A DNA stretch of 52,576 bases from a virus: positions 1 to 52,576 of the IMG/VR virus record IMGVR_UViG_3300025401_000039; one strand, written 5' to 3'. The position numbers and the translations under genes were made by a program. Numbering within the stretch: position 1 is the stretch's first letter; each line of letters opens with the position of its first letter. The notes under the pieces were generated by a model, which was not told the origin of the DNA, made no database searches, and was given only the letters and a program-made list of their open reading frames with translations. This document shows positions 8,003 to 31,417 of the stretch, piece by piece.

Positions 8003-8474
8003 TAAGATCGAATTAAAAGAAAAGATAGCATTTGTAGACATGAATGTTCGCGCGGCATGGGACGAAATGACTGTCGAACAACAAAAAAGTCTAAAAAGTG
8101 AATTCTTTATTTTAAACAGGTATCTTAGTAGTGCTCAAGATCAAAAAAGAGAAATACAGGAACATTTTGTATTAACTGTAAACGAATACTTTAATAAAAA
8201 TTGGAATGATTTACAAAAACATCCTAAATTATTATGGTTGTTATTGTGTATGTGTAGTTATAATGGCGAAAAAACATTTTACCATAATTGGATAGGGCCT
8301 AAGAAAAAAACAGGTACTGGCGGTAAGAGATATAAATTTTTAGAAGAAATTTATCCTAATCGTAAACGAGATGAGTTAGAGTTATTGGCTGAAATAACTA
8401 CAGACAAAGAAATGAAAGAGCTAGCAAGAAAATACGGAATGGACGAAGCAACCATAGCTAAAAAATTAAAATGA
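7995..8474 (+). CDS. Probable clamp-loader small subunit (gp62-like)
   Basis: 159 residues, helical. FFILNRYLSSA, an LQKHPKLLWLLL segment, FYHNWIGPKKK and a C-terminal KRYKFLEEIYPN...LARKYGMDE stretch follow the pattern of phage clamp-loader subunits of the gp62 type, which help load the sliding clamp. The partner gp44, clamp gp45 and polymerase are not in this window, so the call is tentative. Confidence 0.55.
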   Translation: MSDKIELKEKIAFVDMNVRAAWDEMTVEQQKSLKSEFFILNRYLSSAQDQKREIQEHFVLTVNEYFNKNWNDLQKHPKLLWLLLCMCSYNGEKTFYHNWIGPKKKTGTGGKRYKFLEEIYPNRKRDELELLAEITTDKEMKELARKYGMDEATIAKKLK

Positions 8475-22987: not shown

Positions 22988-23062
22988 TGGTGGGCCCACC
23001 TGGGTTCGAACCAGGGACCAAGGGATTATGAGTCCCCTGCTCTTCCGCTGAGCTATAGGCCC
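22988..23062 (-). tRNA. tRNA-Ile2(CAU), CCA encoded
   Basis: 75 nt with a canonical cloverleaf: acceptor GGGCCTA/TGGGCCC, D-arm GCTC/GAGC, anticodon loop CTCATAA, T-arm CCTGG-TTCGAAC-CCAGG, discriminator A, CCA. The anticodon CAU could mean Met. However, the anticodon-arm to variable-loop stretch GACTCATAATCCCTTGGTC closely follows bacterial tRNA-Ile2, whose C34 becomes lysidine to read AUA. It would supply AUA decoding for an AT-rich genome. Co-transcribed with the 23629-23069 genes. Confidence 0.85.
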
Positions 23063-26104: not shown

Positions 26105-26179
26105 TGGCGCCGCAGATGGGAATCGAACCCACCTAAGTCTCGCAGACAACGAGTTACCCTCCCAGAGAGCTACTACGGC
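26105..26179 (-). tRNA. tRNA-Asp(GTC), CCA encoded
   Basis: Acceptor GCCGTAG/CTGCGGC, discriminator G as expected for Asp, encoded CCA, T-arm GTGGG-TTCGATT-CCCAT, anticodon loop TTGTCTG giving GTC. The D-stem needs G-T pairs, the anticodon stem has an A-A mismatch, and position 37 is T, so it is somewhat divergent. Confidence 0.7.
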
Positions 26180-27057: not shown

Positions 27058-27549
27058 TTATTCTGCGCACTCCTTTGGGTTGAGTTTACGAATAGCTGGG
27101 GCTAGCTTCTTCCAACGCCCGCCCATCTTTTTGTAGTGCCACTCGCCCGACTGATAGTCGTCTGATGCTTTGTATTTGTAAACATACAAGTACTCGCACC
27201 AGCTACCCTCAAAGTAGTCTTCTGCTTTTTTAAGCGAGGGGAACACTTTAAACGGAGCTGTCTCGCCTCTGTCGCGTGTGTAAAATGTACACTGATTGCC
27301 GTAGAGCTTGTCCCATTCCTCGTCTGTCAACTTAGTATCCAAACGACTAAACGGATGCTCTGCGCCAATCTCAGGGCGCAGGGAGCTAATATCGCCCAGT
27401 GCAATCAAGTTGTTGACTTTGGGACTAGCTGAATAATGCTTTTGAAGAATAGCGCCGTTGTGTTCCAAATACCCGTCCCAGTGACAATAAACTGCGCGAA
27501 CAGTTTTGTTGTAAGGGTTTTGGATAGCAATCATTGAACGTGTACCCAT
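27058..27549 (-). CDS. Conserved phage protein MGTRS-type, 163 aa
   Basis: MGTRSMIAIQNP...VRAVYCHWDGYLEHNGAIL and LIALGDISSLRPE form a signature seen in many phage and plasmid proteins of unknown function. Later region RDRGETAPFKVF and WCEYLYVYK. Ribosome site AAGGAGCGA. Confidence 0.8.
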   Translation of the reverse strand: MGTRSMIAIQNPYNKTVRAVYCHWDGYLEHNGAILQKHYSASPKVNNLIALGDISSLRPEIGAEHPFSRLDTKLTDEEWDKLYGNQCTFYTRDRGETAPFKVFPSLKKAEDYFEGSWCEYLYVYKYKASDDYQSGEWHYKKMGGRWKKLAPAIRKLNPKECAE

Positions 27550-28741: not shown

Positions 28742-29056
28742 TTATATGCAACAAAAAGCATTACTGGGAATTAAATTATTACTTTCTATGTACTGTAGCA
28801 CCTCTATGTAGTACTCCCGTACAAAAGTGTCCTGTTGCATAATACTATCGTGTAACTTTTGCACATTATTGTCCGTATTAAATGCCGCTAGCGCATTAAT
28901 ATTATACTGTATGTCTAGCGTGTGGAACTGTAAATTGTCCACTGTAATGGGCCTGTTAACACCGTGTTGTGTAGTACTAAAGTCTATGTAATCCTGTGTA
29001 GTTTTAAGTACTAGCATGTTAATTTGTAGTTTATGGGCGGGTGTTAGTTTACGCAT
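28742..29056 (-). CDS. Hypothetical protein, 104 aa
   Basis: Asn/Gln-rich helical protein beginning MRKLTPAHKLQINML. First gene of the minus-strand early block, next to the putative origin. Ribosome site AAAGGAA. Function unknown. Confidence 0.7.
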   Translation of the reverse strand: MRKLTPAHKLQINMLVLKTTQDYIDFSTTQHGVNRPITVDNLQFHTLDIQYNINALAAFNTDNNVQKLHDSIMQQDTFVREYYIEVLQYIESNNLIPSNAFCCI

Positions 29057-29076: not shown

Positions 29077-29105
29077 ATTATACAACATTTTGGGCCGACT
29101 GTCAA
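29077..29105 (-). promoter_or_regulatory. Perfect sigma70 promoter
   Basis: TTGACA, 17 bp, TATAAT, serving 29056. Divergent from the plus-strand promoter 24 bp away. Confidence 0.9.
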
Positions 29106-29128: not shown

Positions 29129-29157
29129 TTGACAGTTTGGGATTTTGGTGCTATAAT
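29129..29157 (+). promoter_or_regulatory. Perfect plus-strand sigma70 promoter
   Basis: TTGACA, 17 bp, TATAAT. It points into the DnaA-box cluster and could act as an origin-activating or primer promoter, as well as serve the 24-codon ORF. Confidence 0.9.
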
Positions 29158-29163
29158 AGTGGT

Positions 29164-29238
29164 ATGGTTCGAACAGCAGACACTGGGGATGGACGGCGAG
29201 GGCGGGCAACGATTTTTAAGTTAGTAAGCGCCAACTAA
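29164..29238 (+). CDS. Possible leaderless 24-residue peptide
   Basis: ATG six bases after the -10 box, the spacing of other leaderless genes here. The basic peptide starts MVRTADTGDGRRGRA. It ends 4 bases before the first DnaA box. It may instead be only the 5' part of an untranslated RNA. Confidence 0.35.
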   Translation: MVRTADTGDGRRGRATIFKLVSAN

Positions 29239-29241
29239 CTA

Positions 29242-29352
29242 TGTGGATAACGTGTGGATAACTTTTGAGACGGGTTTTGGTTGCGCGCCCCTGTAACGCT
29301 AGATTGACAGTGGATAAACTTGTGGATAAAGTTATTAACAAAGTTATCCACA
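29242..29352 (+). other. DnaA-box cluster, putative replication origin
   Basis: Five DnaA boxes in 111 bp: TGTGGATAA at 29242-29250, 29253-29261 and 29321-29329, AGTGGATAA at 29309-29317, and TTATCCACA at 29344-29352. Four are perfect 9-mers. They sit at the minus/plus gene switch, downstream of a perfect promoter and beside repeat arrays. Binding of host DnaA is inferred from sequence. Confidence 0.7.
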
Positions 29353-29412
29353 TAAACCTGGTTGACAAAACGGGTTTGGACTGGGCAAGGTCCCGGGCCC
29401 GAACTGTGGCTA

Positions 29413-29628
29413 TTATTCTTCCGAATCCCCGTGTATTGTTACCTTATAGTAGTAACGAGGCAATGGAGTACTGATAAAGTCACTGGCTTCATACTGTTGA
29501 TCAAAGGTAAATGTGTCCATGTCACACGAGGAATCATTATGTTTGAATACAGTAATAACACCACCCGCATCTACCTTTACATGCGCTTGATGTGTGGTTA
29601 GCTGTATAACTACTCTAGTAGTGATCAT
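29413..29628 (-). CDS. Hypothetical protein, 71 aa
   Basis: Beta-rich (VVIQLTTHQAHVKVDAGGVITVF) with a clear AAGGAG site before the ATG. A frame ending in a 22-residue ORF (29625-29693, MLTTLNGSFSS) overlaps its start by ATGA and may be a partner or leader. A GTAAATAC late-like box lies at the ribosome site. Function unknown. Confidence 0.65.
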   Translation of the reverse strand: MITTRVVIQLTTHQAHVKVDAGGVITVFKHNDSSCDMDTFTFDQQYEASDFISTPLPRYYYKVTIHGDSEE

Positions 29629-29752
29629 ATAGTGTTCTCCTTAAAGTATTTACACAGTTCGCTACTAAACGAGCCATTAAGAGTGGTTAGCATAGCAACA
29701 CTGCCACTTAGTGGTTCTGCACTAGTGCGAGGTCTAAAAGTATAGTGTACAT

Positions 29753-29867
29753 TAAGTGTGATAAAGTGTGAAATAGATCTCCCCACCCTGCGTATAGAGT
29801 CATTGACAGGGATCTAGTGGGGAGAAAAGTGTTGAAAAGTGTGACAAAGTGCAATAAAGTGTGACAG
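29753..29867 (+). repeat. 10-bp-phased AAAGTG(TGA) repeats
   Basis: AAAGTG-type units begin at 29826, 29836, 29846 and 29856, exactly 10 bp apart, and a second pair at 29753 and 29763. A CTCCCCAC/GTGGGGAG inverted repeat (29779-29786, 29817-29824) lies between. The helical phasing suggests cooperative protein binding, iteron-like. Confidence 0.6.
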
Positions 29868-29965
29868 ATTTGGGATTCTGCGTCACAATAGCGGCCAGGG
29901 TGGGCTAGGTTAGAGTCTACGTTTGAGAACGGGTGTGGTGACGAGAGGCTATGCTGCAATGGTTA

Positions 29966-30043
29966 CTCCCACATTTCCCACATTTCCCACATTTCTCACC
30001 ATTCTCACCATTCTCCCATCTTTCTCACATTCTTCCCCTACTG
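29966..30043 (+). repeat. G-free 9-bp tandem repeat tract
   Basis: Three CCCACATTT units (29968-29994), two CTCACCATT units (29995-30012) and diverged copies follow one another. The plus strand contains no G from 29964 to 30042. Such strand-asymmetric tracts can be unwinding or primosome sites. The 516 bases from 29629 to 30144 hold this, the phased repeats and 32-bp repeats, and no convincing gene. Confidence 0.7.
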
Positions 30044-30134
30044 CACACGCATAGCAGCGGGGCCTTTTGCTAGTTGTCCGGTCCCGTTATTGTTCCCTCA
30101 ACACTGCACACGCATAGCAGCGGGGTCTTTTGCT
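30040..30134 (+). repeat. 32-bp direct repeat, two copies plus a partial third
   Basis: Copies at 30040-30071 and 30103-30134 differ at one base. The core TAGCAGCGGGGCC then TTTT recurs at 30331-30347. Each full copy has a TAGCA/TGCTA inverted repeat. Function unknown. Confidence 0.75.
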
Positions 30135-30144
30135 ATATACATAC

Positions 30145-30358: not shown

Positions 30359-30490
30359 TTAGTGTGTTACCCAAAGTGCCAATAGTATTATTACAGCTAC
30401 TAGCCAGATCCAAAACACTATTCGTGTACACATGCCCTGTTTGCTCAACCATTGAGTGATTTCTTTATACACATATATTAGACTTGTCAT
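30359..30490 (-). CDS. Small single-span membrane protein, 43 aa
   Basis: An N-terminal amphipathic part (YKEITQWLSKQGMC) is followed by one transmembrane helix (IVFWIWLVAVIILLALWV). TAATG overlap with the lipoprotein gene. Could be part of an envelope or lysis complex. Confidence 0.65.
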   Translation of the reverse strand: MTSLIYVYKEITQWLSKQGMCTRIVFWIWLVAVIILLALWVTH

Positions 30491-30720
30491 TAGAATCCAT
30501 TCCTATTGTATGTATATGCTGGGTTCTTGTTCAACTCACAATAATAAGCCAAATCAACGACACTATTCCACATGTTACAGTCAGCATCAGTAGTTAGACT
30601 TAATGCATGATCTGTAGGGCTTTTACCTGTTATCACAGTTGTAGTCAAACTCACGGGTGTATAAACTGCGCAACCACTTAGGGCTAGCACTAGATATATA
30701 GTTATGAGCAGGGCTTTCAT
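30490..30720 (-). CDS. Small lipoprotein, 76 aa
   Basis: Signal MKALLITIYLVLALSGC with lipobox LSGC, then a mature part with two cysteines (DADCNMW, YYCELN). Lies between two single-span membrane genes with overlapping start/stop codons. A spanin-like or other envelope role is possible but unproven. Confidence 0.75.
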   Translation of the reverse strand: MKALLITIYLVLALSGCAVYTPVSLTTTVITGKSPTDHALSLTTDADCNMWNSVVDLAYYCELNKNPAYTYNRNGF

Positions 30721-31054: not shown

Positions 31055-31417
31055 ATGGCACAAGCATACAGAGAAACTACTCAGTGGGAAGATGGTAACG
31101 CTGCCATCAATCACACTTACTTGTTGGAAGGTGACATGATGATTGCCTACATGCGTGTGGGGTCAAACGTGCCCTACTACTTTAAGAACCCTATACGTAT
31201 ATCCAAAAGCGGACGTAAGTTTGAACCCTTGGAGCTCAACCCATTTGATAGCATTTTCAGTGTGATCATTCCCCAAACAGTAGAGGGTAGGGTTAGAGAA
31301 ATTGACGGCAGTAAGGGTGCCAAATATATCTTAGACATAGACGCTAAGACTTGTACTTGCCCTGGATATACCTATCGCGGCGCTTGCAGACACGTAAAAG
31401 AATTGGAGACAGTATGA
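31055..31417 (+). CDS. SWIM zinc-finger protein, 120 aa
   Basis: The C-terminus CTCPGYTYRGACRHVKEL is a SWIM motif (CxCx(n)CxH) that can bind DNA or proteins. The N-terminal domain (WEDGNAAINHTYLLEGDMMIAYM ... SGRKFEPL) recurs in phage proteins. Heads the long rightward operon. Function unknown. Confidence 0.75.
   Translation: MAQAYRETTQWEDGNAAINHTYLLEGDMMIAYMRVGSNVPYYFKNPIRISKSGRKFEPLELNPFDSIFSVIIPQTVEGRVREIDGSKGAKYILDIDAKTCTCPGYTYRGACRHVKELETV

Follow-up and report, generated by a model that had tools for sequence, protein, structure and literature searches.

A candidate replication-origin-like control locus with optional host DnaA boxes in uncultured jumbo phages of the T4 superfamily

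Introduction

How replication starts in T4-type phages other than T4 is poorly known. In T4 itself, oriE combines iterons, an early promoter, small genes and a divergence of transcription, and oriF works through promoter-made R-loops; the oriE iterons have no proven role and have been called ill defined (PMC3016281). Iterons joined to DnaA boxes make up the plan of several plasmids, e.g. RK2, P1, F and pSC101 (PMC4980987), and a title cited in that source reports the RK2 boxes as a helicase-delivery site.

Here we describe a locus from a 52.6-kb fragment, an IMG/VR virus record (IMGVR_UViG_3300025401_000039) of which all 52,576 nucleotides were analysed (the window). A preliminary description had proposed a DnaA-dependent origin at this place. 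The locus provides a conserved, compact and testable candidate for a replication start, one in which iterons, a protein family and an RNA are joined by an optional host-initiator module that was gained or lost several times. The DnaA boxes are the part that makes the locus visible; its conserved core is the more interesting one.

Results

The window codes for a gp32-like single-strand binding protein, a UvsX-like recombinase, a UvsW-type helicase, a primase and a DnaB-like helicase. Its UvsX is nearest (~67%) to those of the jumbo phages Atu_ph07, CBB, GAP32 and their kin, and the phage groups with the 350-490-kb jumbo phages of the T4 superfamily. The earlier label of a T4-like phage is thus right for the superfamily, although the phage is not a close relative of T4. 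Its nearest relatives are uncultured contigs.

Two promoters stand back to back at the left of the locus:

29077-29105, minus strand: perfect sigma70 promoter from which the early genes run leftward, beginning with 28742-29056; the back-to-back partner of the promoter at 29129
29129-29157, plus strand: perfect sigma70 promoter TTGACA-N17-TATAAT ahead of the G-rich leader; transcript expected to begin near 29164; kept in the relatives' alignment

The divergent pair recurs with matching spacing in the relatives L206, L286, L289, L298, L305 and L319, and the distance between early promoter and leader promoter is nearly constant in the relatives. A perfect sigma70 promoter had been reported ahead of the boxes, and it is real. 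It is not exceptional for its perfection, since 19-38 kb contains 17 perfect hexamer pairs, of which two are on the plus strand and most precede tiny genes. Its oddity is that it points away from the early genes, with no credible plus-strand gene after it. Between 20638 and 29105 (minus strand), some fifteen perfect TTGACA-N17-TATAAT promoters precede almost every tiny early gene, one each; some share flanking words such as GCCCAAAATG, and relatives are alike in this.

The boxes had also been placed at the minus/plus gene switch, which proved wrong: the coding switch is at ~31,030 (~31.03 kb), ~1.7 kb right of the boxes, because three small genes in between (29413-29628, 30359-30490 and 30490-30720) still read on the minus strand. 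The first rightward gene (31055-31417, plus strand) encodes a small SWIM zinc-finger protein. No homologue was confirmed for the 104-aa neighbour protein (28742-29056). A 163-aa protein farther left (27058-27549, minus strand; PHROG 1987) is present in cyanophages (T4-GC 66) and Caulobacter jumbo phages. The early region also holds genes for tRNA-Met (22988-23062) and tRNA-Asp (26105-26179), both on the minus strand; the latter overlaps an antisense 58-aa ORF and received no call by the Rfam model.

The plus-strand promoter leads into a G-rich leader, with these elements in and beyond it:

29167-29174, plus strand: GTTCGAAC palindrome at the expected transcript 5' end, conserved in the relatives' alignment
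29185-29207, plus strand: G-rich element GGGGATGGACGGCGAGGGCGGGC, the window's best predicted RNA:DNA-hybrid stretch
29220-29239, unstranded: palindrome GTTAGT-N8-ACTAAC, present in about ten relatives
29353-29376, unstranded: putative hairpin around TTGACAAAA, from sequence comparison and folding; the relatives' equivalents resemble a terminator of the upstream small gene

The leader follows the pattern TTCGAA-N-GGGGnTGGACG, of which GGGGnTGGACG is the strictest part. A search recovered this pattern in 35 viral stretches but gave no match across 84,980 prokaryote genomes. The leader matched no Rfam covariance model even at E ≤ 1. By RNA:DNA over DNA:DNA energy, calculated with nearest-neighbour values, it is the most favourable 23-nt and 40-nt stretch in the window on both strands; the hybrid stability of the relatives is partly selected by the G-rich search pattern itself. 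The leader is apparently noncoding, because it has no ribosome site and its internal spacing varies by one base. A coding reading was accordingly rejected: the ATG at 29164, at the expected transcript start, is without a ribosome site, and the one-base length change, in L267, disrupts the reading frame. Beyond the palindrome, no covarying RNA structure of the leader's own was detected. Some phages carry two leader copies (G020 at 119653 and 133506, G033 at 61204 and 64208, G008 at 8368 and 17021), some of them away from iterons, and because of these doubled or iteron-free leaders the element may have a use apart from the iterons.

Just beyond the leader lies the DnaA box cluster:

29242-29250, minus strand: perfect DnaA box TTATCCACA
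29253-29261, minus strand: perfect box TTATCCACA, 11 bp from the first
29309-29317, minus strand: variant box TTATCCACT (8/9), conserved in L206
29321-29329, minus strand: perfect box TTATCCACA, which is TTATTCACA in L206
29344-29352, plus strand: perfect box TTATCCACA, conserved in L206

The sequence TTATCCACA is the bacterial consensus DnaA box, and also that of E. coli. The claim of five boxes, four of them perfect, in 111 bp is borne out for 29242-29352, the maximum per 111 bp being four. Such clustering is far beyond chance: in 1000 dinucleotide-shuffled versions of the window no 111-bp stretch held more than one box, and shuffling the surrounding 1.3 kb 20,000 times produced two boxes in a single case. 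The alignment with L206 extends over the whole region, and L206 holds four homologous boxes. Identity between window and L206 is 91% inside the boxes and 66% between them, and the two bases that differ in the retained boxes are both at the free N of TTATNCACA, which together indicate that the cluster is selectively kept. Host DnaA would very likely bind these consensus boxes. No AT-rich unwinding element was conspicuous near them; 60-bp duplex stability is unremarkable, and no sampled position falls in the window's least stable 1%.

To the right of the boxes come a small gene and a series of repeats:

29413-29628, minus strand: gene of a 71-aa protein belonging to a small new family, ribosome-binding site AAGGAG
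29754-29776, plus strand: outlying AAAGTG-type repeat (AAAGTG at 29763) beside GAAATAGATC
29824-29866, plus strand: iteron array of four AAAGTG units (29826, 29836, 29846, 29856), exactly 10 bp apart
29867-29960, plus strand: conserved noncoding stretch past the iterons
29963-30042, plus strand: 80-bp G-free tract of 9-bp TTTCCCACA-like repeats, missing in L206
30040-30072, plus strand: 33-bp repeat with CAGCGGGGCCTTTT core, copy 1
30103-30135, plus strand: 33-bp repeat, copy 2

Homologues of the 71-aa protein (60-86 aa, one family) occupy the same place in ~20 relatives. The gene adjoins the iterons and sits between iterons and leader where those are ~0.5-0.7 kb apart. No Pfam or PHROGs family scored above cut-off. 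The predicted fold is beta-beta-beta-beta-alpha (pLDDT 88.6) and had no significant structural match; a weak likeness to the PUR-type repeat 5fgo (TM about 0.5, E 0.2) serves as a lead only. The repeats noted earlier are likewise real. Five AAAGTG copies were found, the last four of them phased at exactly 10 bp; the G-free tandem tract runs for 80 bp, about twice the next longest G-free run in the window (38 bp); and the supposed 32-bp repeats, 97% alike, are in fact 33 bp long. The AAAGTG array is conserved in relatives by alignment and in syntenic place. A reading of its repeats as weak DnaA boxes was rejected, as most units are at least two mismatches from TTATNCACA. Past the iterons, CAGCGGGGYCTTTT / TACAGCGGGR elements are scattered in the window (30055, 30118, 30334), in L206 (4374, 4562, 4752) and in L390 (5612-5876), and are thus retained even in L390, whose iterons differ. 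That box-bearing locus (L390 5251-5914, in G021) has AGTATGAGTAT-type repeats instead of AAAGTG iterons, a possible iteron swap.

Loci of relatives were fetched with the 163-aa neighbour protein. They share a core that comprises the outward sigma70 promoter with its TTCGAA/G-rich leader, the back-to-back early promoter, the AAAGTG array, the small-protein gene and outer repeats, the CAGCGGGG-type repeats outside the iteron array being part of it. Noncoding DNA is conserved both at the iterons and at the leader. This pattern indicates that an uncultured branch of T4-superfamily jumbo phages has conserved the core as a module. Iterons and leader lie within 0.2-2.7 kb of each other in 22/23 records holding both, window included (13/13 records in one set and 8/9 further ones, the exception being G006), although several of these records represent one phage population (e.g. 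G015, G016, G023, G024), so that independent lineages are fewer, roughly fifteen to twenty. Both elements are usually single-copy in records of up to 364 kb. Isolate phages showed no direct DNA similarity to the region, with chance matches only for the leader alone, and tandem DnaA-box pairs, leader and iterons were found in none of 11 isolate genomes (T4, P-SSM2, PA5oct, CcrPW, Atu_ph07, CBB, GAP32 and others; 3.76 Mb).

The DnaA boxes are distributed otherwise than the core. They occur near the leader in seven lineages, patchily on the tree, and are absent from most relatives. L267 has seven boxes, mostly at 11-bp spacing, L297 six, L298 two, L395/L398 at least four and the record of L392 two; the L206 cluster is of mixed orientation. 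Because arrays of relatives differ from that of the window in order and orientation, their distribution points to repeated gain or replacement, and on the small-protein tree (a weak one, 79 columns) the boxes need four changes for four box-bearing rows. No box cluster stands at the locus in L202, L203, L204, L205, L208, L210, L225, L249, L286, L289, L293, L305, L319 and others, which keep the rest. Conservation of the boxes, one of the checks proposed, therefore holds for L206 and some lineages and fails for most, and the patchy distribution marks the boxes as accessory to the core. Tandem pairs of the form TGTGNATAA-N1-30-TGTGNATAA were found at seven sites, in 6/34 environmental records (~4.1 Mb). 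All but one of these sites (6/7) lie within ~0.3 kb of a leader, the seventh being a second site in G014; the fraction is 5/6 when the window, which prompted the search, is left out. Selection of the other records rested on protein, leader or iteron and not on DnaA boxes, so the association does not follow from the sampling. A broad scan of viral contigs for tandem DnaA boxes was kept out of the evidence, the matches listed being mostly unrelated.

GC skew was run as a check on the proposed origin. In the window it follows gene direction and gives no independent strand signal; when split by gene strand, in the window and in sampled pieces of the three large relatives G015, G018 and G026, it shows coding direction only. 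In T4, oriA and oriC also lie outside skew switches (PMC3016281).

Discussion

The proposal of an origin survives in part: the boxes lie in a conserved module whose iterons and divergent promoter resemble an origin, but the skew reports only gene direction. Dependence on DnaA finds no support as a general rule. The module persists in most relatives without a single DnaA box, so DnaA is not the essential initiator of this type of locus, and the natural presence or absence of boxes separates its core part from its accessory part. Nor is the contrast drawn earlier with primer-promoter origins a sharp one, since the boxes lie downstream of a promoter of the primer-promoter type and T4 oriE itself has iterons (PMC3016281). 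We judge the prospects about even that the 29.1-30.1 kb region serves an uncultured T4-superfamily jumbo branch as a control locus of replication-origin type. The uninformative skew, the missing AT-rich unwinding element and the iteron-free leaders hold the estimate there and make control of early transcription the main rival.

If the locus is an origin, the transcription, R-loop formation, protein binding and origin activity that we infer might proceed as follows. Host RNA polymerase would start at the 29129 promoter early in infection and make a short RNA, whose G-rich 5' part would tend to remain paired with its template as an R-loop; the processed leader RNA could then prime leading-strand synthesis, as at T4 oriF and oriG. 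A phage protein, perhaps the 71-aa one encoded by the neighbouring gene, would bind to the phased AAAGTG iterons, as happens at plasmid iterons and is suspected at T4 oriE. In some lineages, that of the window included, host DnaA would bind the cluster just downstream of the leader. Bound DnaA might help to open DNA or hold it open, bring in a helicase, or act as a roadblock that fixes where the leader RNA ends at its 3' side; the boxes might also titrate DnaA. The boldest form of this proposal is a hybrid initiation in T4-superfamily jumbo phages, in which a virus-specific G-rich RNA, transcribed from one early promoter of a back-to-back pair, primes replication at iterons that a dedicated 70-aa protein binds, and lineages have repeatedly added docking sites for host DnaA at the same spot. 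We advance it tentatively, as something short of probable. If true, it would be a kind of initiation not described before and would tie phage initiation to the host initiator.

The same parts could serve transcription. Divergent promoters, iterons and leader would then form a master switch of the early genes, with the G-rich RNA as a regulator, the iterons as the small protein's operator and DnaA, an ordinary transcription factor in the host, modulating or blocking the leader. Back-to-back early promoters at fixed spacing would be expected of such a switch, as would the array of 17 perfect early promoters that begins here, and the second leader copies without iterons (G020, G033, G008) and a skew devoid of replication signal fit it too. 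But an operator would be expected closer to the promoter pair than the iterons are, at ~0.6 kb (up to 2.7 kb); the leader has no covarying structure of its own beyond the palindrome; and co-location in single copy with plasmid-type iterons and DnaA boxes is what origins typically show. We regard this account as a serious possibility, though a doubtful one. Under titration the boxes would act as a decoy: with amplification of the phage DNA they would sequester host DnaA and so halt new rounds of host chromosome replication. T4-type phages, however, normally take over by degrading host DNA, a decoy could sit anywhere whereas 6/7 tandem-pair sites are beside a leader, and box numbers can be modest (two in L298). 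Four perfect boxes and a near-perfect one per genome (up to seven boxes in L267), in many genome copies late in infection, do speak for it, as does the titration of DnaA by strong boxes reported for E. coli (PMC12371093); on balance we find titration unlikely.

Less probable still is a site of packaging, recombination or segregation, with terminase or partition-like proteins bound to the direct repeats. The noncoding 1 kb is repeat-rich and contigs of several relatives end nearby (e.g. L207, L213, L267), but contig ends near repeats are also an effect of assembly, the proteins scanned around the locus gave no sign of a terminase, parA or parB gene, and the promoter-led leader and the DnaA boxes would go unexplained; we rate this as highly improbable. 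That a piece of bacterial oriC or plasmid origin entered by chance pickup or misassembly is suggested by the bacterial consensus TTATCCACA, and is for practical purposes refuted. Homologous flanks and conserved boxes are present in an independent contig, L206 (91% against 66% identity), different clusters occupy the same slot in L267, L297, L298 and L395, and shuffles never reach the observed cluster.

Set beside known systems, the locus shares with bacterial oriC and datA a cluster of several consensus boxes, some of them 11 bp apart as in phased arrays. It differs in lying on a phage contig, with no dnaA/oriC gene neighbourhood and no clear unwinding element seen, and in that most relatives which keep the locus lack the boxes. 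Like the origins of RK2, P1, F and pSC101, it unites iterons and a DnaA-box cluster within <1 kb (PMC4980987); unlike them, it has no recognised Rep-like initiator, just the 71-aa protein of a new family, its boxes are dispensable across phage relatives, and the phage carries its own helicase, primase and recombinase. The likeness to T4 oriF and oriG is in a promoter that points into a noncoding stretch whose RNA is computed to hybridise well, but those origins have middle (MotA) promoters and an AT-rich unwinding element (PMC3016281), whereas here the promoter is a consensus sigma70 one, the element is G-rich and no unwinding element is marked. With T4 oriE (repEA/repEB), differences are in the repeat, 10 bp here against 12 nt in T4, and in the G-rich leader, AAAGTG array and tandem DnaA boxes, all absent from NC_000866. 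Features of the oriE type are nevertheless found at this locus: evenly spaced direct repeats, conserved and syntenic, small genes within the region, an early-type promoter, a nearby change in the direction of transcription, and the replication genes of the T4 superfamily (PMC3016281).
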